Shown: positions 4,542-38,697 of the stretch, piece after piece | Layout of the letters: every line of letters starts with the position of its first letter | Position numbering within the stretch: position 1 is the stretch's first letter | Source of the DNA: Flavobacteriales bacterium | GTDB lineage: Bacteria > Bacteroidota > Bacteroidia > Flavobacteriales_D > Sanyastnellaceae | Assembly (NCBI GenBank): GCA_947442505.1 | Contig: CANEVR010000017.1 | Location: 1 to 42,884, forward strand | DNA: 42,884 nucleotides | Direction: 5' to 3' | Translations under genes and position numbers: made by a program | The notes under the pieces: model-generated | Seen by the model: only the letters and a program-made list of their open reading frames with translations | Told to the model about the DNA's origin: nothing | Databases searched by the model: none

Positions 4542-6398
4542 TCAATCAATTGTCGATTGCTCATGCTGCATTTGATAGAAGTGGTGGTAGATGCCTTTTT
4601 TCGCAATCAGTTCTTCATGGTTTCCAGATTCCATTACTTGACCATTTTCCAGAACAAGTATTAAATCACAATGTTGAATGGAAGAGACGCGATGTGAAAT
4701 AATGAGACTGGTTCTGTCTTTCATTCTCTTCTTAATTCCACGTAGTATTTTTTCCTCTGTGGCTGTATCAACTGCTGAAAGGCAATCATCCAAAAGCAAG
4801 ATTTGTGGATTGGTAATGAAGGCACGTGCAATGGAAATGCGTTGCTTTTGTCCGCCGCTGATGTTAATCCCTCGCTCTCCCAAGACCGTTTCCCATTGCT
4901 GTGGGAATTGCAATATGTCTTGAAGAACACCGGCATCATCCGCGGCGGCAATCAAATCTTCTTCGCTTGAGTTTTCTTTTCCAAAAAGGATATTGCTTTT
5001 GATGGTGTCAGAAAACAAAAATACTTCCTGAGGCACCCAGCTGATGGATGATCGAATTTGCTTTAGATCCAATTTTGGAAGAGGAATACCCTCAAATTGG
5101 ATTTCGCCTTGTATAGGGTCAAAGTTTCGGGTCATCAATTGGAAAAGCGTTGATTTGCCTGATCCAGTCTTACCAATGATACCCATGGACTGCCCTTTTT
5201 TCAATTCAAAGCTCACATTTTTGAGCGCTTTTATCCCGGTATCGGGGTAAGTGTAAGAAACATTTTCCCATTTGATGTTTCCTTGAATTGGAATGGAACT
5301 GCTTGGATTGTTTTGAATGATGGGCTGTGCTTGCAGGAACTCATTGATCCGTGTTTGGCTAGCTTCTGCCTTCCTAACGAGACTGGTTACCCAACCAACA
5401 CTGGCAAATGGCCATGTTAGTTGATTGACATAAAATACAAATTGAACAATGGTGCCAATAGTGATGGCGCCTTTTTCAACTTGCATTGCTCCAATGTAAA
5501 TGGTCAAAATAGTGCTGAGTCCAACCAATATGCTGATGACAGGCATGAATAAGGCATCAGATTTGACCAATTTCATTTGCAATCCTTTGTATTGATCGCT
5601 TTCCTTTTGAAAGTCATTGGAAAGTTTTCGTTCTTTTCTAAAGGATTTGATAACCCGAATACCACTGAAAGTCTCTTGAACAATGGTGGTCAATTTGCTT
5701 TGCTGCTTCTGAACTTTCTCCGTTCTTTTGTTGATGATGGTGCTGACATAAAATATACCCACCATCATAAGCGGCATGGGTGCCAGAGTGTAAAGGGTTA
5801 GGGTAGCGTCAATGTTCCACATCACGCCTGCACAAAGAACAATAAGTATAATCAAATTGATGGTGTACATGACAGCAGGCCCCAAGTACATTCGGACACG
5901 ATTCACATCCTCACTGATCCGATTCATTAAGTCTCCAGTTCTGTTTTGACGGTAAAATGAAACGTCCAAGGCCTGGTATTGCTGGTATATCTCATTCTTT
6001 AAATCATACTCAATGTGTCTTGACATGACAATGAGACTCTGCCTTTGATAAAAAAGGAAAACCCCCTTGATCAAATAGACCACGATGTATCCAGTAGCCA
6101 AAAGCAAACCGATGTACAGGCTGTAATCCTTCCAATTTTGCGCATTCAGCGTGAGTGCATCTCCCCATCCGGTCAATGAACTTATCCAATACAGCGATTC
6201 AGGGGTTTTTATGACAACATCATTTTTTTGAATGTTTTCTTGCTCTCGGATTAGTGTGGCAACAAAGTCAATTCCTTCACCGATAATTTGTGGAGCGTAG
6301 ACATTGAAAACATTGGTGAGTAGAATGAAAACAAAACCCGCCATCACGCGGCCTCTATACTTCCATAAATACTTGTTGAGGTAGGCGAGTGATTTCAT
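4542..6398 (-). CDS. ABC exporter, fused permease and ATPase
   Basis: This is a 618-residue half-transporter: an N-terminal membrane domain with about six helices (roughly residues 15-340) and a C-terminal nucleotide-binding domain. The Walker A motif is GKTGSGKST (409-417), the signature is ISGGQ (513-517), Walker B is ILLLDD (533-538) and the switch histidine is H569 in SHR. The residue after Walker B, normally a catalytic glutamate, is aspartate (D538, LLLDDCLSAVD). That form is known from MdlA/YheI-type halves of heterodimeric exporters. No second half-transporter is visible, so it either works as a homodimer with slow hydrolysis or pairs with a protein encoded elsewhere. The ATG overlaps the TAA of the upstream TonB-dependent receptor gene by one base (TAATG), so both are probably on one mRNA. 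Substrate unknown; MsbA-like lipid export and drug export are both possible. Confidence 0.85.
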   Translation of the reverse strand: MKSLAYLNKYLWKYRGRVMAGFVFILLTNVFNVYAPQIIGEGIDFVATLIREQENIQKNDVVIKTPESLYWISSLTGWGDALTLNAQNWKDYSLYIGLLLATGYIVVYLIKGVFLFYQRQSLIVMSRHIEYDLKNEIYQQYQALDVSFYRQNRTGDLMNRISEDVNRVRMYLGPAVMYTINLIILIVLCAGVMWNIDATLTLYTLAPMPLMMVGIFYVSTIINKRTEKVQKQQSKLTTIVQETFSGIRVIKSFRKERKLSNDFQKESDQYKGLQMKLVKSDALFMPVISILVGLSTILTIYIGAMQVEKGAITIGTIVQFVFYVNQLTWPFASVGWVTSLVRKAEASQTRINEFLQAQPIIQNNPSSSIPIQGNIKWENVSYTYPDTGIKALKNVSFELKKGQSMGIIGKTGSGKSTLFQLMTRNFDPIQGEIQFEGIPLPKLDLKQIRSSISWVPQEVFLFSDTIKSNILFGKENSSEEDLIAAADDAGVLQDILQFPQQWETVLGERGINISGGQKQRISIARAFITNPQILLLDDCLSAVDTATEEKILRGIKKRMKDRTSLIISHRVSSIQHCDLILVLENGQVMESGNHEELIAKKGIYHHFYQMQHEQSTID

Positions 6399-8815
6399 TA
6401 AAATTCAAAATTCCAAGTTACACTGGGTAAGATGGGAAACAAACTTACTTGGTAGGCTTTGGTTTGAAAATTTCCTTGACTGAAATCACCTTCTGCTGCA
6501 AAGTAGATGAAGTAAGGATTTCTTCTGTTGTAAAGATTGTAAATGCTGAAATTCCAACTGGACACAAAAACACGTTTCTTGAGCTGCGGATTAAGTCTTG
6601 CCATCTCCTGTCTTTCAATGCTGTTCTTAGAAATCAAATTCAATGAAATGTCTGCGCGGTGATAAGGAGCCATTCTAAAGCTGTTTCGATCACCATAAAC
6701 GTCAATGACATTGCCTTGATAGAAATATCGAGAGGTTGGCAAGGTGATGGCATTCCCAGTGGCATAAACGAACACAAAACCGATGTCTGCACGTTCGTTG
6801 ATTTTGTAGTTCATGACAAAATTGAAGTCATGCCTTCTGTCCCATCTGGATGGGAAGGGTCTTCCTTCATTGATTTCATCAAATTGACGCATTGTTTTCG
6901 CCCAAGTGTATCCAATCCAGCCGGTGACATTTCCGGTATTTCTTTTCAAAAAGAACTCTGCTCCATAGCTCCAACCTTTGCCGAACCAAAGCAGATTATC
7001 AATGTTGTCATTTACTGTTTGTGAAGGGTCGGCTCCTTCTTGGTACTCAGATACATTGAACATGTCTTTGTAGTATAATTCAACACTACTTTCCCATTTG
7101 TTTTCTTTGAAATCACGGAAATAGCCGATGCTGTATTGGTCAGAGAACTGAGGTCTGAGTCGATCCGTGCTTGGCAACCATACATCGGTAGGCAATGATG
7201 TAGGCGAAAAACTGTTCAAGTGGATGTATTGGAAATTTCTGTTGTATCCGGCCTTGATGCTGGCTCCTTCTTTTATCAAATATCTGCCGGAGAGTCTGGG
7301 TTCAAATCCCCAGTAGTCAGCAACTTTTTCACCATTGCCATAGGTAATGGTTTCTGGTGATCCCGCACCAATTAGACCTGTAGTTTCTGGATAAACATAT
7401 CTGGTAAATGAACCTGTGTGCAAGAAGTAACTTTGTCTCAAACCAATATTGACCTTCAACTTTTCATTGATGTCCCATTCATCCTGAATGTAAGCAGCAG
7501 ATTCATGTGAATTCAATCGGCTACTGTTGTTTAGATTGAATTGCGTATCACCACTGCTGGCGTAGGTGTTGTTGGGGGTGAAAATGTGATAAGTGTAATC
7601 AACTCCCCATTTGACTTTGTGATTGGGGTTGGGAAAATAGCTGAATTGTATTTTAGAACCATAATCGCGGATGCCACTTTTTAAACCAAATGTGAATTCC
7701 TCTTGACCTCCTTCAAAACTGAATGAATAATCAGTGAAGTAGAACAAGGTGTTCATGAAAAGTTTTGGGCTGAATATATGGTTCCATCTTAATGTACTGG
7801 TGGCATTGCCCCATGGGATTTTGGTGGAAAAACCAGCCTTGACACTGTTAAAGCTGAATACATCTCGACCCAAATAAGCACTGAGTGAAATCCAATCTTT
7901 GGAGCCCAACTTGTAATTGAACTTGGCATTGAGATCATAGAAGTAATATCCAGTTCCTTGAATGTTGGGGCGGCTGTTGATCAGTGGTTTTAAAAGAAAA
8001 TCGATGTAAGTTCTTCGTCCGGAGATGATGAATGATGATGTGTCCTTTTTTATAGGACCTTCTGCTGTAAAACGGGATGCAATGGTTCCAACCCCTCCTG
8101 TTCCGTGAAATTCCTTGTAATTGCCATCACGCAATGAGATGTCCAATACACTGGAAAGGCGACCACCATATCCGGAAGGAACTCCACCTTTGAAGAGCTC
8201 AATATTCTTGACAGCGTCCGCATTAAAAACGGAGAAAAAACCAAAAAGGTGAGAGGCGTTGTAAACGGTTGCGTTGTCCAGCAAAATTAGGTTTTGATCG
8301 ATACCACCACCACGGACATAAAAACCAGTATTGCCCTCTCCTGCACTTTGCACTCCTGGAAGAAGCGCGATGGTTTTTAAGATGTCCACTTCACCAAATA
8401 CAACAGGCAGTTTTTTGATTTGATCGATGGGCAACTCTATTCTGCCCATGTCCGTACTTTCTGTATTTCGATTGCGGTCAGCCTGAATCACCAAATCTCG
8501 GCTATTGTATTCCTCTAAATTAAAATTGATGACATCGTTTTTGATCAATTGCAGAGGCCGAACAATTTCCTGGAAACCAACAAAACTCACTTTGAGTTGA
8601 TATTCTCCTGCTGGCGCCGTGATGCTGTAATAGCCAAAATTATTGGTTGTTGCGCCATATGGTGTACCTGCCAGGAAAACAACGGCGCCAATCATGGTTT
8701 CTCCGGTCCGAGATTCACGTATTTCACCGCTGATGGTATATTTTTCTTGAGCAAATGTAACTGCAGGGGCAAAGGCTATCAGGCAGAACAAAAAGAAATG
8801 CATTAAAAATTTCAT
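6398..8815 (-). CDS. TonB-dependent outer-membrane receptor
   Basis: This is an 805-residue outer-membrane receptor. A signal peptide (MKFLMHFFLFCLIAF, cut near TFAQ) is followed by a carboxypeptidase-regulatory-like beta-sandwich (about residues 25-110: SGEIRESRTGETMIGAVVF), a plug domain (about 115-235, including VRGGGIDQNLILLDNATVYN) and a long C-terminal barrel ending in aromatic residues (WNFEF). Such proteins import large or scarce nutrients using TonB energy. No SusD-like lipoprotein is adjacent, so it is not a typical glycan-uptake pair. The ATG at 8815 is preferred over a TTG nine bases upstream because a TACTTTTG promoter box ends six bases before it. The gene overlaps the ABC exporter gene by one base, and the two may serve the same compound. 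Confidence 0.88.
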   Translation of the reverse strand: MKFLMHFFLFCLIAFAPAVTFAQEKYTISGEIRESRTGETMIGAVVFLAGTPYGATTNNFGYYSITAPAGEYQLKVSFVGFQEIVRPLQLIKNDVINFNLEEYNSRDLVIQADRNRNTESTDMGRIELPIDQIKKLPVVFGEVDILKTIALLPGVQSAGEGNTGFYVRGGGIDQNLILLDNATVYNASHLFGFFSVFNADAVKNIELFKGGVPSGYGGRLSSVLDISLRDGNYKEFHGTGGVGTIASRFTAEGPIKKDTSSFIISGRRTYIDFLLKPLINSRPNIQGTGYYFYDLNAKFNYKLGSKDWISLSAYLGRDVFSFNSVKAGFSTKIPWGNATSTLRWNHIFSPKLFMNTLFYFTDYSFSFEGGQEEFTFGLKSGIRDYGSKIQFSYFPNPNHKVKWGVDYTYHIFTPNNTYASSGDTQFNLNNSSRLNSHESAAYIQDEWDINEKLKVNIGLRQSYFLHTGSFTRYVYPETTGLIGAGSPETITYGNGEKVADYWGFEPRLSGRYLIKEGASIKAGYNRNFQYIHLNSFSPTSLPTDVWLPSTDRLRPQFSDQYSIGYFRDFKENKWESSVELYYKDMFNVSEYQEGADPSQTVNDNIDNLLWFGKGWSYGAEFFLKRNTGNVTGWIGYTWAKTMRQFDEINEGRPFPSRWDRRHDFNFVMNYKINERADIGFVFVYATGNAITLPTSRYFYQGNVIDVYGDRNSFRMAPYHRADISLNLISKNSIERQEMARLNPQLKKRVFVSSWNFSIYNLYNRRNPYFIYFAAEGDFSQGNFQTKAYQVSLFPILPSVTWNFEF

Positions 8816-8821
8816 CGTGTG

Positions 8822-8829
8822 CAAAAGTA
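8822..8829 (-). promoter_or_regulatory. TAnnTTTG box of the receptor gene
   Basis: On the minus strand TACTTTTG lies here, six bases before the receptor ATG at 8815. It sits back-to-back with the plus-strand box at 8836-8843, with six bases between them. Confidence 0.6.
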
Positions 8830-8835
8830 GTAGGT

Positions 8836-8843
8836 TATTTTTG
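8836..8843 (+). promoter_or_regulatory. TAnnTTTG box of the DUF5916 gene
   Basis: TATTTTTG lies six bases before the ATG at 8850, the same spacing as the divergent box on the other strand. Its upstream promoter half would have to lie over the start of the receptor gene. Confidence 0.6.
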
Positions 8844-8849
8844 CTACCG

Positions 8850-11339
8850 ATGAAAAAACAAGGAAACCCGTTTATTGTTTTACAGATTTTGTGTTTTGCT
8901 TTTTGTGCCGTTTCAGGAACTGCACAGAATGTCCTGGACGCTTCCTTGGTTAATCGTCCTCCAAAGCTGGATGGTATTTTAGAACCCGAGATTTGGCAGG
9001 AAGCAATATCAGCTGCAAATTTTACTGAGCAGTTGCCTGTTCCCGGCGGTCCTGTGCGGCAACCGAGTGAGGTGAAGGTGGTTTATACACAGGAAGCGCT
9101 TTACGTTGGTTTCTTTTGTTTTGACAATCAGCCCGATAGTATTTTAAAACAACTTTCAGGAAGGGATGGAGATGGAAATAGCGATTGGTGCGCCATCACT
9201 GTTAACTGTTATCAAGATGGTATCAATGGCTTCTCCTTTGCGGTATCTCCTTGGGGTGAGCAATGGGATGGGCGGGTAACAGCAGGTGCCGAGGATCCGG
9301 ATGTGAGCTGGAATGCAGTTTGGGATTGTAAAGTGAACATCAACGATAAAGGGTGGTGCGCGGAGTTTAAAATTCCTTTTGCTGCCCTTCGTTTTCCGGA
9401 GAAGGACGTGCAAGAATGGGATATCAATTTTGCTAGAGAAATCAGAAGACACCGTGAAATTTCACAATGGAATCCAGTTAATCCCAATGGTCCAGGAGAA
9501 TTGGCACAAATGGGAAAACTTAGAGGTATTAAAGACATCAAGACGCCAAAACGTTTTTTCTTGTTTCCTTATTTGAGTAGTTACTACAACTACTCGGAGG
9601 GCAATCCGTCAAGTTTTTCATACAATGGCGGAGTTGATGTTAAGATGGGTTTAAATGATGCTTTTACCTTGGATGCTACGTTGATTCCAGATTTTGGTCA
9701 AACCATCAGTGATCAACTCATATTGAACCTTACTCCTTTTGAAATTGAATTTCAAGACAACCGACCCTTCTTTATGGAAGGGACTGAACTGTTCAACAAG
9801 TCAGGAATCTTTTATTCTAGACGTGTTGGCGGTACTCCCGTTGGCGCCTATGATTTGTATGGTCAATTGAATGATAGAGATGTTGTGATAGACAATCCCA
9901 TGCAGAGTCAGTTGTTCAATAGTACAAAAATATCAGGTAGGACCAAAGGCAATACAGGGATAGGTTTGATGAATAGTGTCACAGCGCCTTCCTATGCCAC
10001 GGTGCGCGATTCAGCAGGAGTTGAGCGTCAAATAGAGACTCAACCCTTATCCAATTACAATGTTTTTGTGATGGATCAGAACTTGAAAAACAATTCATAC
10101 ATCACTTACACCAATACCAATGTAACACGAGCGGGTTCAATATATGATGCCAACGTTTCAGCGTATAATTTTGAATTCAAGGACAAGGCCAATGATTGGT
10201 CGATTTATTCATGGGGTGCATCATCATTGCGCAGAGGGGATCAGTATTTTTCAAAGGAAAGACTAAATCAAAAAGGGTTTTCGCATGGCGCAGCGTTATC
10301 AAGATTGAGCGGAAATTTGACCGGTTCCGCCGGATACTACATGGAAAGCGATGGTTACAACCCCAATGATCTCGGCTATCTACAGGCCAACAACTCATGG
10401 GGCCAATACATCAATTTGGCTTATCGCTTGTTCAAACCATTTGGTCCGTTCAATAAGATGTGGAGTGAGCTGAATGTTGCCCGAGAAAGTTTGTATGCGC
10501 CGCGTGCGTTTTCAAGTTTGGAGATTGATTGGGAGCTCGGTCTGAATACTAAGAAGTTCACTACCTACAATGTGTCCATTCACACCGAGCCAGTAAGGGC
10601 TTACAATTACTTTGAACCGAGGGTTTGGGGGATGAAGTTTCATGATTTTGCTCACGTAGAAGTTGGGGGCTGGGTTTCTACCGATTACCGAAAGCAATTG
10701 GCCATTGATGTGGGTGGGCGTTATGGAATTTATGAAGATGACCAAAGGTCCATTCAGAATTTCAGGTTTTCACCACGTTACCGAATCAATGACCATTGGA
10801 TGTTGATTTATGTGTACAGCCTACAACAACATTTCGGTGATATTGGTTTCGCTACTTTTCATGACACCAAAGACAACACTCCTGTTTTTGGTCGAAGAGA
10901 TGCAATATCGCATACTAATGTGCTGACGGCAACTTATGCTGTCAATCCTTTGATGTCATTCAATTGCAGGGTCAGACATTATTGGGGATATTCTCGTTAC
11001 CATCAGTTTTATGAGTTGGATAGCAACGGTGAATTAACCTCGACCAATTATGTCGGTTGGCAGGATGGTGTATCGTCTTCACGTGCCAACCGAAATTTTA
11101 ACTCCTTCACGGTTGATTTTTTCTATAAGTGGAACTTTACACCGGGCAGTGAATTGAACTTTGCATGGAAATGGAGTCAAATTGATGAGGTTTCTGAAAT
11201 TCCGAGTGATTTGCTTCAGGACTTCAAGACGACAGCAGAGATACCCATCAGCGGAAGCGTGAGTTTTAGGCTGGTTTACTTTTTAGATTATCGTATTTTG
11301 ACAAAGAATCGGGGAGAGGCCATTTCGAAATTTATGTAG
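8850..11339 (+). CDS. DUF5916 protein with CBM9-like domain
   Basis: This is an 829-residue exported protein. It has a signal peptide (MKKQGNPFIVLQILCFAFCA, cut near GTAQ), then a family-9 carbohydrate-binding-like beta-sandwich (about residues 30-230, including RPPKLDGILEPEIWQEA, SEVKVVYTQEALYVGFFCFD and FKIPFAALRF). A long C-terminal region rich in aromatic and alternating residues, matching DUF5916, is predicted to form an outer-membrane barrel. The function of this family is not established; membrane-anchored sugar or peptide handling is a common guess. The ATG at 8850 is chosen over a GTG at 8817, because the signal peptide begins at 8850 and a TATTTTTG box lies six bases before it. It is transcribed divergently from the TonB-dependent receptor across only 34 bases, so the two may be regulated together. 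Confidence 0.82.
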   Translation: MKKQGNPFIVLQILCFAFCAVSGTAQNVLDASLVNRPPKLDGILEPEIWQEAISAANFTEQLPVPGGPVRQPSEVKVVYTQEALYVGFFCFDNQPDSILKQLSGRDGDGNSDWCAITVNCYQDGINGFSFAVSPWGEQWDGRVTAGAEDPDVSWNAVWDCKVNINDKGWCAEFKIPFAALRFPEKDVQEWDINFAREIRRHREISQWNPVNPNGPGELAQMGKLRGIKDIKTPKRFFLFPYLSSYYNYSEGNPSSFSYNGGVDVKMGLNDAFTLDATLIPDFGQTISDQLILNLTPFEIEFQDNRPFFMEGTELFNKSGIFYSRRVGGTPVGAYDLYGQLNDRDVVIDNPMQSQLFNSTKISGRTKGNTGIGLMNSVTAPSYATVRDSAGVERQIETQPLSNYNVFVMDQNLKNNSYITYTNTNVTRAGSIYDANVSAYNFEFKDKANDWSIYSWGASSLRRGDQYFSKERLNQKGFSHGAALSRLSGNLTGSAGYYMESDGYNPNDLGYLQANNSWGQYINLAYRLFKPFGPFNKMWSELNVARESLYAPRAFSSLEIDWELGLNTKKFTTYNVSIHTEPVRAYNYFEPRVWGMKFHDFAHVEVGGWVSTDYRKQLAIDVGGRYGIYEDDQRSIQNFRFSPRYRINDHWMLIYVYSLQQHFGDIGFATFHDTKDNTPVFGRRDAISHTNVLTATYAVNPLMSFNCRVRHYWGYSRYHQFYELDSNGELTSTNYVGWQDGVSSSRANRNFNSFTVDFFYKWNFTPGSELNFAWKWSQIDEVSEIPSDLLQDFKTTAEIPISGSVSFRLVYFLDYRILTKNRGEAISKFM

Positions 11340-11402: not shown

Positions 11403-11954
11403 ATGAAAGAAAAGATGGAGGATATCATCCGAGGTTGTTGTGCTAGGGAGCGCTGGGCACAGGAGCGCTTGTACAAACAATATTCAGGTCTACTCTTTGC
11501 CATTTGTTTGCGTTATGCCAAGAACAAAATGGATGCTCAAGATGTCTTACAGGAGGTTTTTGTCAAAATTTACAATCATATTCATACCTATCATTTTGAT
11601 GGGAGTTTTGAGGGTTGGTTGAGAAGAATTGCGGTGAATACTTCCATTACATTTTACCGCAAGGCTATTAAGAAACATTTAGAGAAAGATATTGATGAAG
11701 GTGTTTTTGAGGTGGCCAATGAACATGATGATTGGAGCCAAGAGTTTTCAATGGAAGAGATGAATACCTGCATTCAACAATTGCCGCACGGATACAAAAC
11801 CATTTTCAATTTGTATGTCATTGAAGGCTACAAGCACAAGGAAATAGCGGAAATGTTGCGTATTGATATCAATACTTCCAAGTCACAACTGTCTCGGGCA
11901 AAAGTGCACATTCAAAATGAGTTACAAAAGATGAATAAAATAATGATCGTATGA
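11403..11954 (+). CDS. ECF-type RNA polymerase sigma factor
   Basis: This is a 183-residue sigma-70 family protein of the extracytoplasmic-function class. Region 2 is visible around residues 22-80 (LYKQYSGLLFAICLRYA, AQDVLQEVFVKIYNHI, FEGWLRRIAVNTSI). Region 4 lies around 125-175 (LPHGYKTIFNLYVIEGYKHKEIAEML followed by a helix-turn-helix ending SKSQLSRAK). It would direct RNA polymerase to a small regulon in response to an envelope signal. The stop overlaps the next gene by four bases (ATGA), the usual arrangement for a sigma factor and its membrane-bound anti-sigma partner. Downstream lie an outer-membrane barrel and a T9SS cargo protein. Confidence 0.92.
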   Translation: MKEKMEDIIRGCCARERWAQERLYKQYSGLLFAICLRYAKNKMDAQDVLQEVFVKIYNHIHTYHFDGSFEGWLRRIAVNTSITFYRKAIKKHLEKDIDEGVFEVANEHDDWSQEFSMEEMNTCIQQLPHGYKTIFNLYVIEGYKHKEIAEMLRIDINTSKSQLSRAKVHIQNELQKMNKIMIV

Positions 11955-12550
11955 GCGAAGGAAAATGGAATCATCCCATGTTTGAACAAATAAGAAATGC
12001 TGAGGTGGAGGCACCTGAGCACGTCATGCATGCGGCAATCAAGAAGAGCAATAGAAACGGTTTTTTCTATTTTCAATGGCATTCATTCAATGTTTGGTAT
12101 TTGGCTTTGGGGCTTAGTTCTTTGTTGACACTGGTGTTTTTCAATGGCAACAATGGACAGAGTGGTCAATTCAGATCTGAAGCAAAAGAAACAAGAACAA
12201 TTGCAACACCTGCCGTGTCTCCAGTTGATGAGAAAATGAAGGTTAGTACCGAGATTCAAGTGATCAATTCACCCGTCGTTGCTTCCAAGAAGAAAAATAC
12301 ACAGGTTAGTGAGGAGTTGAATGCTATTGAACGATCTGTTGCAGCTCATGAAGAAGAGGCTGCACTGCGGAACGATCAAGAACCTTTGAACACCTTATCC
12401 GATGCGGAAGTCAATACAAATACAGCTGTTGCAACAAGTCAGGAATTGCAACAAGATTTGAAAAAAGCGGAGCCACTGCCGATTAAGCGTGAACTGCCCA
12501 AGAAAGGGCGATCACTCCGAGTTAAGATTGGCGACAACGCTAAGCCATAG
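11951..12550 (+). CDS. Putative anti-sigma factor, one membrane helix
   Basis: This is a 199-residue protein with a cytosolic N-terminus of about 45 residues containing a short amphipathic stretch (EHVMHAAIKKS), one membrane helix (about residues 47-65) and a polar, low-complexity periplasmic tail ending in a basic segment. It has no recognised zinc-binding HxxxCxxC motif, so assignment as anti-sigma factor rests on topology and on the four-base overlap with the upstream ECF sigma gene. The tail could contact the outer-membrane barrel protein encoded next. The start is the ATGA overlapping the sigma-factor stop. Confidence 0.65.
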   Translation: MSEGKWNHPMFEQIRNAEVEAPEHVMHAAIKKSNRNGFFYFQWHSFNVWYLALGLSSLLTLVFFNGNNGQSGQFRSEAKETRTIATPAVSPVDEKMKVSTEIQVINSPVVASKKKNTQVSEELNAIERSVAAHEEEAALRNDQEPLNTLSDAEVNTNTAVATSQELQQDLKKAEPLPIKRELPKKGRSLRVKIGDNAKP

Positions 12551-12554
12551 ACCA

Positions 12555-13514
12555 TTGAAAACAATCCTGATGGTTGTAGGTTTGCTCATTTTTTCCAATG
12601 AGCTGTTGTCTTTTGTAACTACCAGTGATACTTTAATTCTAGATGGGCAGCTCATTTATTTGGATCAAGATACACTTTCCGATTCAGATTTGCGTGATCA
12701 TGCATTTGATTCAGATTATCGAAAGATCAGAAAAAAGGGAATTTGGGGGTTGGAGGCCAATATTGGTTCATCAACCATGTCCAATCAGAATTTGGCTAAT
12801 CCCACAGGAGAATCTTCATTGTACAGTTTGAGTCCTGATTTTCGAAAAAGGGCATGGGGAAGAAGTGGGTCAATGATGACCTACTATCATTTTCACGATC
12901 ACTTGGCCTTGCGCACAGGAATAGAGTATAATCAAATTCAATGGAGGTCGATGCACTTGGAGAACACCGATGAGTGGAATGCATTGGATATTTTTGAGAC
13001 GTCTTTTAATACAACAGGATTGCAAGCCTTTTACAGGGTGTTGGTTGACACTAGTCTTGGGCTGTATGAGTTGGATACCCTTACCGTTCAACCTGAAGTG
13101 AACAACCATAAATTTCAATTGATTACCATTCCCGTTATGGCGGCTTTTCATTTGAGTTCGCCCAGCAAGCGATACAGAACGCCCAATGTTTTGATGCTGG
13201 AAATGGGGGTGGTATACCGTTATGGGAGGGTTCAAGCTCCTGCCATTACAGCCTTGTCCAATGGGTATGAATTGGTGACGATTCCCCAGGTGAGCACTGT
13301 TTGGAATAACTGGAGTATGCGTTCTGCCATAACATGGAAACGGATGCTGAGCAAGAAGGGGCAGAATGCTTTTTTCTTTGTTTCGAGAATTCAAATGGAC
13401 TGGCCGCCAAGCTCCTTTGATCAGCGCGGATGGTCTTGGAAGTTGCCCAGTTCATATTTAACATTTGGAATTTTATGGGAGAGAGGTAAATCATTACATT
13501 CGCTTAACAATTAA
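12555..13514 (+). CDS. Outer-membrane beta-barrel protein
   Basis: This 319-residue protein has a signal peptide (MKTILMVVGLLIFSNELLS when the TTG at 12555 is used). An acidic linker follows, then alternating hydrophobic and polar strands with many aromatic residues (SMMTYYHFHDHLALRTGIEYNQ, PNVLMLEMGVVYRYG), the pattern of the small outer-membrane barrels common in Bacteroidota. An ATG at 12570 is the alternative start but would shorten the signal peptide. A longer frame from 12489 would overlap the previous gene and lacks a signal peptide, so I reject it. The start is four bases after the anti-sigma stop, so it belongs to the same operon. It may sense or transmit the signal that frees the sigma factor; that role is inferred from position only. 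Confidence 0.7.
   Translation: MKTILMVVGLLIFSNELLSFVTTSDTLILDGQLIYLDQDTLSDSDLRDHAFDSDYRKIRKKGIWGLEANIGSSTMSNQNLANPTGESSLYSLSPDFRKRAWGRSGSMMTYYHFHDHLALRTGIEYNQIQWRSMHLENTDEWNALDIFETSFNTTGLQAFYRVLVDTSLGLYELDTLTVQPEVNNHKFQLITIPVMAAFHLSSPSKRYRTPNVLMLEMGVVYRYGRVQAPAITALSNGYELVTIPQVSTVWNNWSMRSAITWKRMLSKKGQNAFFFVSRIQMDWPPSSFDQRGWSWKLPSSYLTFGILWERGKSLHSLNN
13495..13502 (+). promoter_or_regulatory. Promoter-like box TACATTCG
   Basis: TACATTCG is a one-base variant of TAnnTTTG and lies 22 bases before the ATG at 13525. It overlaps the 3' end of the preceding barrel gene. Confidence 0.4.
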
Positions 13515-36284: not shown

Positions 36285-36338
36285 GAATAAAAATATCAAC
36301 ATTGGAAAACTTTTTTCCATGTGCGCGAAGGACAAAGC

Positions 36339-36346
36339 TAATTTTG
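36339..36346 (+). promoter_or_regulatory. TAnnTTTG box of the helicase gene
   Basis: TAATTTTG lies five bases before the ATG at 36352 and supports that start over an in-frame ATG at 36319. Confidence 0.55.
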
Positions 36347-36351
36347 TGAGA

Positions 36352-38697
36352 ATGTCTTTCTTGAACGAACTCAACGACGCCCAAAGGGCTGCCGTTACCC
36401 ACATCAAAGGTCCACTCATGGTCATTGCGGGCGCAGGCTCGGGCAAAACCCGTGTATTGGCCTACCGCATTGCCCATTTGATTCAGAATGGGGTAGATCC
36501 TTTTCAGATTTTGTCCTTGACTTTTACCAACAAGGCTGCTGCGGAGATGAAACACCGTATAGCTTCGCTTGTAGGCGAGGCAGATGCCCGAAATATTTGG
36601 ATGGGCACTTTTCACTCCATTTTTGCGCGCATCCTGCGGAATGAAGCTGAGCGCATCAATTACTCCCGCAACTTTACCATCTATGATACCAATGATGCGA
36701 AGAGCATGATCAAAGACGTGCTCAAAGAATTGGGGTTGGATGATAAAATTTACAAGCCGAGCAATGTCCTAAGCCGCATCTCCTCTTGCAAGAATAATTT
36801 GATTGGTCCAGAGGATTACCGCAATAACATTGACCTCATCAATGAGGACCACATGAGCGGCAAATCTAAAATGGTAGACATCTATGAGCGCTACAACAAC
36901 AAATTGTTCAACGCCAGTGCCATGGACTTTGATGATTTGTTGTTTAAGACAAATATTCTTTTTCGCGACAATCCCGATTTGTTGTTGAAGTACCAACACA
37001 AGTTCCATTACATCCTGGTGGATGAGTACCAGGATACCAATTTTTCGCAATACCTCATTGTGAAGCAATTGGGGAAAATGCATGAGAATGTCTGTGTCGT
37101 GGGAGATGACGCGCAGAGTATCTATTCTTTTCGCGGAGCCAATATTCAAAACATCTTGAATTTTAGAAGGGACTATCCCGACTACAAAATGTACAAGCTG
37201 GAACAGAATTACCGCAGCACGCAAACCATCGTCAACGCTGCCAATGGCATCATTGCCAAGAATAAAGATCAAATCAAAAAGAATGTTTGGACATCCAACG
37301 ACCAAGGTTCTGTGATTGGATTGTACAAGGCGGTCTCAGACAACGAAGAAGGCGCCTACGTGGCCAATCATATTTTTGCAACCAAAAAGGAAGAGGGCAT
37401 AGATTACAACGGTTTCGTTATTCTATACCGCACCAATGCACAAAGCCGCTCGTTCGAGGAATCATTGCGCAAGCTGAATATTCCATACAAATTGTACGGT
37501 GGCACGAGTTTCTATCAACGCCAAGAGATCAAGGATTTGATTGGTTACTTCCGTTTGGTGGCCAACCACAAAGATGAAGAGGCGTTGAAGCGCACCATCA
37601 ACTATCCCGCACGTGGCATTGGAAAAACCACTTTGGAGAAGGTTCAGGTGATATCCGCCGAACGAAATACCAGCATGTGGGAAGTTATTCTGACGCCACA
37701 GCAAATAGGAGTCAATAGTGGAACGGCTTTAAAGTTGTCCGAGTTTACAACCATGATTCGCAGCTTTGCCGTTGGCTTGGAGACAGCGCCGGCATATGAG
37801 GTGGCTTACAATATTGCGAGCAGCAGTGGGTTGCTCAAAGAATTGTACAATGATAAAACACCCGAAGGTGTGGCGCGCTATGAGAACATACAAGAGTTGT
37901 TGAATGGTATCAAGGAATTTTCTGACAAAATTGACCCTGCCAATCCGCACAAAGTCAATACCCTTTCCGAGTTTTTGATTGATGTAGCCCTGCTAACCGA
38001 TGCCGATAATGAAGATTCAGCGGAGAAAGAAAAGGTCAGCCTCATGACCATCCACGCGGCCAAGGGATTAGAGTTTCCTTTTGTTTACATAGTAGGATTG
38101 GAAGAGAATTTATTCCCCTCCATGATGGCGTTGAATTCCAGAGAGGAGTTGGAGGAAGAGCGACGTTTGTTCTATGTGGCATTAACAAGAGCCGAGAAAA
38201 AAGTTACACTGAGTTATGCTACCACAAGATACCGTTGGGGGCAATTGACCTACGGAGAACCATCCCGATTCATTGATGAGATCGATGACAATTTCATTGA
38301 CAAAAAAGGAGTGTCCCTCAACAAACCATCTGAGTTTAGTCGACCCAAAATAGATTTCGGAAAAGAGCGACAAGGCTTTAATTCCGGCAGAGTGGGAGAG
38401 CGTGAACCCCGCATGCTCAGTGATACACCGGACATTCCGGTCAACTTTACACCGCCGGTCAAAAAAGACGCTATCCCATCGGGAAATTTCAAGAAGGTGG
38501 ATGCGGCTCAGTCCAAACCTGCCGGCCCTATCCTGCAGTTGGAATCAGGCATGACCGTCAGCCACGAGAAATTTGGCAAGGGCAAAGTATTGAAGGTGGA
38601 AGGGGAAGGCGCAGACGCCAAGGCCACCATTTTCTTCCCATCTGAAGGACAAAAGCAATTACTGCTTAAATTCGCCAAACTGACCATCATCGATTGA
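36352..38697 (+). CDS. UvrD/PcrA-type DNA helicase
   Basis: This is a 781-residue superfamily 1A helicase that unwinds DNA in repair and replication. Walker A is GAGSGKT (27-33), the Walker B/DExx box is DEYQDTN (224-230), GDDAQSIYSFRGA follows, and later motifs include YRTNAQSR, TIHAAKGLEF and YVALTRAEKK. Length and motif order fit PcrA/UvrD rather than RecB or AddA, which are longer. The C-terminal tail holds a Tudor-like region (GMTVSHEKFGKGKVLKVEG) typical of PcrA-type proteins. The ATG at 36352 is chosen because a TAATTTTG box lies five bases upstream and the family N-terminus (LNELNDAQRAAV) begins there; the extra eleven residues from 36319 are not expected. Confidence 0.92.
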   Translation: MSFLNELNDAQRAAVTHIKGPLMVIAGAGSGKTRVLAYRIAHLIQNGVDPFQILSLTFTNKAAAEMKHRIASLVGEADARNIWMGTFHSIFARILRNEAERINYSRNFTIYDTNDAKSMIKDVLKELGLDDKIYKPSNVLSRISSCKNNLIGPEDYRNNIDLINEDHMSGKSKMVDIYERYNNKLFNASAMDFDDLLFKTNILFRDNPDLLLKYQHKFHYILVDEYQDTNFSQYLIVKQLGKMHENVCVVGDDAQSIYSFRGANIQNILNFRRDYPDYKMYKLEQNYRSTQTIVNAANGIIAKNKDQIKKNVWTSNDQGSVIGLYKAVSDNEEGAYVANHIFATKKEEGIDYNGFVILYRTNAQSRSFEESLRKLNIPYKLYGGTSFYQRQEIKDLIGYFRLVANHKDEEALKRTINYPARGIGKTTLEKVQVISAERNTSMWEVILTPQQIGVNSGTALKLSEFTTMIRSFAVGLETAPAYEVAYNIASSSGLLKELYNDKTPEGVARYENIQELLNGIKEFSDKIDPANPHKVNTLSEFLIDVALLTDADNEDSAEKEKVSLMTIHAAKGLEFPFVYIVGLEENLFPSMMALNSREELEEERRLFYVALTRAEKKVTLSYATTRYRWGQLTYGEPSRFIDEIDDNFIDKKGVSLNKPSEFSRPKIDFGKERQGFNSGRVGEREPRMLSDTPDIPVNFTPPVKKDAIPSGNFKKVDAAQSKPAGPILQLESGMTVSHEKFGKGKVLKVEGEGADAKATIFFPSEGQKQLLLKFAKLTIID

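Follow-up and report, generated by a model that had tools for sequence, protein, structure and literature searches.

The 34 bases between two divergent genes, one for a TonB-dependent receptor and one for a DUF5916 protein, very probably hold two sigma-ABfr-type promoters set back to back, both near-leaderless, each driving its own gene and the two competing only mildly. The gap occupies positions 8816–8849 of the window, the whole 42,884-nucleotide stretch of DNA that was analysed, and its parts are listed in Table 1. On re-check, the coordinates in a preliminary description of this DNA, along with its box sequences, its two six-base distances from box to ATG and its six-base spacer, were all exact. 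The same description took the boxes for promoter elements, a view borne out by their −7 consensus, their spacing from the ATGs and their conservation despite synonymous divergence.

Table 1. Features of the receptor/DUF5916 region, in positions of the window.
Feature	Position	Strand	Remarks
TonB-dependent receptor with carboxypeptidase-regulatory-like domain	6398–8815	minus	805 aa; ATG at 8815; PF00593, PF13715, PF07715
Box-to-ATG interval, receptor side	8816–8821	minus	predicted start at 8817 or 8816, leader of 2 or 1 nt
−7 promoter box TACTTTTG of the receptor gene	8829–8822	minus	invariant in the six gap-holding genomes of the genus
Inter-box spacer	8830–8835		6 bp (7 bp in G006)
−7 promoter box TATTTTTG of the DUF5916 gene	8836–8843	plus	invariant in the six gap-holding genomes of the genus
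Box-to-ATG interval, DUF5916 side	8844–8849	plus	predicted start at 8848 or 8849, leader of 2 or 1 nt
DUF5916 protein	8850–11339	plus	829 aa; ATG at 8850; PF19313, E 1.6e-177
ECF-type sigma factor, directly 3' of DUF5916	11403–11954	plus	PF04542, PF08281

Both boxes fit TAHHTTTG, the −7 consensus of the sigma-ABfr-type promoter. Reading the sequence upstream of either box revealed no recognisable −33 TTTG/TTG element; a strong motif in the −33 region is also absent from 100 comparison promoters of the same genome. A scan of positions 8600–9100 for sites of the E. coli sigma-70 type found one, against 0.9 expected. The genome of the window (G000) was sampled in 40 pieces of 20 kb, to which the window was added, giving 842,884 of 2,637,451 bases, and on both strands of this sample TAnnTTTG has 583 matches, about 3.5e-4 per position. 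By simple arithmetic, two boxes would then fall by chance at two specified places with a probability of about 1e-7. The motif is nevertheless short, and its 583 matches leave a slight probability, the smallest that we assign to any alternative, that one box is a chance match whose gene is transcribed from elsewhere. Against this, TACTTTTG and TATTTTTG are the only right-facing TAnnTTYG matches within 400 nt upstream, one for each start; both are invariant in the genus, and a sister lineage also has them, 6–7 nt (DUF5916) and 16 nt (receptor) before the ATG.

The genus set comprised seven genomes (G000–G006), six of which hold the gap; G004, which is 64% complete, gave no DUF5916 match. All 16 box bases and both six-nucleotide intervals between box and ATG are unchanged in the six. 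The gap is 34 bases long in five of them and 35 in one, and it is identical throughout in four (G000, G002, G003 and G005). This conservation stands beside 31–73% identity to the window's sequence at fourfold-degenerate sites of both flanking genes. G002, G003 and G005 keep an identical gap at a fourfold-site identity to G000 of 40–73%, and the boxes are unchanged even in G001 and G006, where such sites are near saturation (31–37% identical); the comparisons are partial for G002 (223 DUF5916 codons) and G006 (232 receptor codons). G006 has seven bases instead of six between its boxes, and each box still lies six nucleotides from its own ATG.

This last change bears on a reading of the gap as regulatory rather than promoter DNA. 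The boxes can be taken together as an imperfect inverted repeat, GCAAAAGTA-N6-TATTTTTGC, whose nine-base arms, with one mismatch, lie in the middle of the gap as would an operator bound by one dimeric regulator of both genes. However, both arms are −7 consensus sequences at promoter distance from the ATGs, and a spacer that shifts while the distances from box to ATG stay fixed points to two independent −7 elements and not to one rigid operator. In addition, CAAAnnTA-N6-TAnnTTTG occurs once only in the 842,884 bp, in this gap, with one occurrence for a spacer of five and none for seven. On the six-to-seven spacer change and the single occurrence, the dyad was rejected as a single operator, a reading that we hold to be very improbable. 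What selection seems to preserve, to judge from these alignments, is each box and the interval that separates it from its own ATG, not a rigid dyad.

Bidirectional boxes with a shared TA (CAAAnnTAnnTTTG) were also considered; there are two in the 842,884 bp, and they were treated as chance. One lies inside a called ORF (L112) and the other at window position 36333, beside a UvrD-like gene, where no opposite ORF fitting the box was noticed. At this second site (36333–36354, CAAAGCTAATTTTG) two opposed −7 boxes share the TA, and 5 nt downstream of the plus-strand box comes an ATG (36352). Translation of the UvrD-like helicase (PF00580) probably begins at this ATG and not at 36319, where the listed ORF starts.

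The boxes also bear on the start codons. They had been said to fix both starts, and it is fair to say that they favour the ATGs at 8815 and 8850. Conserved protein beginnings match these ATGs, MKK for DUF5916 and MKF or MKN for the receptor; to our eye these N-termini read like signal peptides. Several other candidate starts were set aside. Wherever TAnnTTTG stands six bases ahead of an ATG, an in-frame TTG at −9 necessarily results, as is the case for both genes in all six genomes, and this TTG sits inside the box, upstream of the predicted transcript start. G006 lacks the GTG at −33 of DUF5916, and upstream in-frame ATGs, present in some relatives, are not common to all. The position of the box is a simple aid in choosing a start codon, one of use where gene callers may pick the in-frame TTG at −9.

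The available part of the Flavobacterium johnsoniae promoter study (PMC6847099) reports 4–5 nt between box and transcript start at probable promoters, a near absence of G at the two free positions of the box and a −33 motif that is also weak. Applying its 4–5 nt spacing to the present boxes gives the predicted leaders of 1–2 nt and, by arithmetic from the box positions, divergent starts 31–33 bp apart. Ranked against the 100 comparison promoters, with a score matrix built from those same 100, the boxes stand 42nd (receptor) and 54th (DUF5916). The upstream regions fall below the median, at 11th and 34th from the bottom respectively, and the full promoters come 13th and 26th from the bottom. 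These low upstream and full-promoter ranks suggest that both promoters may be average to weak.

In the mechanism that we propose, the main Bacteroidota sigma factor (sigma-ABfr type, recognising TAnnTTTG) would read two separate promoters within a minimal gap. Each promoter would drive its own gene from a transcript start 1–2 nt before the ATG or at the ATG itself, making both mRNAs nearly leaderless. The upstream half of each promoter would extend into the first codons of the opposite gene. Geometry makes an overlap of the polymerase sites at the two boxes likely, and two polymerases would then be unable to open both promoters at the same instant. At ordinary promoter activity, the predicted outcome is mild competition and not an on/off choice, with both genes expressed by turns in one cell.

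The preliminary description had gone further and thought a built-in switch between two outer-membrane functions likely, with initiation in one direction blocking the other. In a genuine switch of this kind, polymerase bound one way would shut off the opposite promoter, and a cell would yield only one of the two transcripts, receptor or DUF5916. Predicted starts 31–33 bp apart, at which polymerase sites should overlap, and a gap length kept at 34 or 35 across the six genomes are both in keeping with such a switch. The E. coli work on bidirectional promoters (PMC12825309), in the portion available, speaks on both sides: a side that was substantially activated could repress its opposite, which leaves some room for a regulated switch here, but basal activity was too low for polymerase competition at all five promoters tested. 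The two boxes of the gap are moreover of one sigma type and of average score.

The sampled genome shows how common such layouts are. Its 647 genes were called by a simple script as the longest non-overlapping ORFs of at least 110 aa, with any ATG in the first 40 codons taken as a candidate start, so that individual calls may be in error; a box pair joined the closest box within 60 nt on one side to its counterpart on the other, and pairs with a negative gap were dropped. Boxes were present on both sides within 60 nt in 15 of 92 divergent pairs, and in six of these 15 they lie less than 25 bp apart (6–23 bp). Receptor/DUF5916 is the tightest of the 15. The other five close pairs are a ribBA-like gene/argS (9 bp), DUF349/RecX (14 bp), an acyl-CoA dehydrogenase/DUF4153 (18 bp), a tRNA_anti-like gene/DUF4886 with PKD (22 bp) and an enoyl-ACP-reductase-like protein/histidine kinase (23 bp); in tgt/era the boxes are 38 bp apart. 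The predicted starts of the ribBA-like gene and argS are about 34 bp apart, an overlap almost equal to that of receptor and DUF5916, and that pair should both be on; argS, tgt or era must be expressed. A candidate ATG with TAnnTTYG 3–7 nt away was found at 15 minus-side and 16 plus-side starts of the 92 divergent pairs, and four pairs have such boxes on both sides, against 2.6 expected if the sides were independent. There is hardly any excess of leaderless-type boxes on both sides of one gap, and since boxes front many starts in this genome, two in one gap are unsurprising. Opposed TAnnTTTG motifs at most 40 bp apart are back to back in 22 cases and face to face in six, the surplus expected if many of them are divergent promoters. 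The receptor/DUF5916 layout is a tight case of common compact divergent promoters, a neat but ordinary pair. A literature search found no paper joining divergent promoters with TAnnTTTG; for overlapping divergent promoters in Bacteroides it returned one match, unrelated by its title and abstract.

Nor is the close spacing kept outside the genus. In the sister lineage (L086–L091 and L095) the boxes are 50 bp apart at all seven loci, the DUF5916 TAnnTTYG box 6–7 nt and the receptor box 16 nt before its own ATG. Two loci from two other genera, L061 and L062, have both boxes, 218 and 116 bp apart; L060 and L063 have a box for the receptor only, and L057, L059 and L064 have none on either side, L057 still lacking one when re-examined. 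A survey of starts at L051–L080 gave 28 of the 30 loci, with L057, L071, L073 and L074 lacking a usable ATG. A relative of the receptor is divergent from DUF5916 in 12 of the 13 loci L052–L064, which cover six genera (the contig of the thirteenth, L056, ends inside DUF5916), and it is so placed in none of 16 more distant loci (L065–L080, with flanks of at most 1.5 kb). Among the loci seen, tight packing of the boxes belongs to one genus and not to the gene pair. Given this spacing, the similar pairs within the genome, the ordinary boxes and the E. coli data, the likelihood claimed for a switch is unsupported, and we regard a genuine switch as improbable.

In the same seven sister loci the box upstream of DUF5916 keeps its place but reads TAnnTTTG in some close relatives and TAnnTTCG in others; going by these sequences, C seems to be tolerated at the seventh box position. 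Among named relatives the closest are uncultured Flavobacteriales MAGs, the isolate codes of which we take to stand for freshwater reservoirs. Three MAGs labelled Chryseobacterium gleum contain DUF5916 genes with 98/94% (L085/L094), 49% (L090) and 51% (L095) identity to that of the window. These values are too far apart for one species, and the label is probably wrong.

The DUF5916 domain match spans residues 232–817 of 829. A comparison with solved structures gave no match at an E-value of 0.001, and a literature search found no paper mentioning DUF5916. The ECF sigma factor gene that follows is possibly on the same transcript. It lies downstream of DUF5916 at 11 of 16 named loci, and two of the five loci without it (L090 and L094) end inside DUF5916; it is also retained beside DUF5916 in the sister lineage. 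The region after DUF5916 in the window (11403–13514) encodes the sigma factor and two proteins without a Pfam match, which are perhaps, as guesses, an anti-sigma factor and an outer-membrane protein. The 200 bases upstream of the sigma factor gene contain no TAnnTTYG box.

Beyond the gene pair itself, the interest may lie in its family setting: leaderless-type promoters seem plentiful there, in contrast to the few that surveys of the phylum have found. Over the 647 sampled genes the distance from TAnnTTTG to ATG peaks at 4 nt (29 genes), followed by 9, 7 and 5 genes at 5, 6 and 7 nt; the reversed pattern gives 0, 0, 2 and 2 genes at 4–7 nt. A second, broad hump lies at about 15–19 nt. Altogether 53 of the 647 genes have TAnnTTTG 3–8 nt before a candidate ATG, against six for the reversed pattern, and TAnnTTCG peaks at the same place (nine genes at 4 nt, none reversed). 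The genome thus has a promoter box at a fixed short distance from the ATG, enriched over the control.

The 4-nt spacing (TAnnTTTG-N4-ATG) was compared with a 10-nt spacing in 40 whole genomes, G000 and 39 relatives, on both strands and irrespective of gene starts. G000 has 149 occurrences at 4 nt against 40 at 10 nt, with reversed controls of 32 and 27. Each of the 24 relatives from the same family shows a 4-nt count that exceeds the 10-nt count by a factor of 2.3 or more and its own reversed control by a factor of 1.5 or more. Another 15 genomes came from other families of the order, and in 14 of them the 4-nt count is again the higher, by 1.3 to 3.8 times, the exception being G040 (48 against 59); two of the 15 fall below the reversed control (G040, 48 against 54; G042, 59 against 65).

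Published shares of short leaders, which have different denominators from the counts given here, are about 3.7% of 5' UTRs under 10 nt in Bacteroides thetaiotaomicron (PMC7366714) and 5.5% in the same category in F. psychrophilum (PMC9723704), while leaders exceed 10 nt in 87% of predicted transcripts with a probable promoter in F. johnsoniae (PMC6847099), each as reported in the part of the source available. According to the accessible text of a 2011 survey, leaderless genes occurred in one of 37 Bacteroidetes/Chlorobi genomes; it sought Pribnow-like boxes only and itself names Bacteroidetes as possibly undercounted (PMC3160421). A search for leaderless mRNA in Flavobacteriales returned one match, the visible text of which concerns Shine–Dalgarno depletion. 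The 4-nt peak points to an undercount of leaderless genes in this family, and the counts suggest that leaderless-type promoters may be commoner in it than in the species mapped so far. A broader proposal is more doubtful: this family of uncultured Flavobacteriales may use leaderless transcription at large scale. If so, divergent genes could share gaps as short as 34 bp in which the promoters overlap, each reaching into the opposite coding sequence, and polymerase competition would necessarily couple the expression of the pair.

Three known systems offer a comparison. Leaderless bacterial genes, as described in the available text of the 2011 survey (BMC Genomics, PMC3160421), likewise have a promoter box about 10–12 bp upstream of the start codon; the survey sought the Pribnow-like TAnnnT, whereas the box here is TAnnTTTG and leaderlessness is predicted from sequence. 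The E. coli bidirectional promoters (Warman et al. 2026, PMC12825309, in the portion available) share with the gap divergent mRNAs and, by our reckoning, overlapping polymerase sites. Their starts, however, are mostly 10–23 bp apart around a shared −10 element; in place of such a pseudo-symmetric element the gap has two separate boxes 6 bp apart, with starts predicted at 31–33 bp. The third is the sigma-ABfr promoter (−33 TTTG / −7 TAnnTTTG, in the accessible part of PMC6847099), with which both sides of the gap share the −7 box, the G-free positions and a plausible start distance, but from which they differ in having no recognisable −33 element and a predicted start 1–2 nt before the ATG in place of a typical leader.
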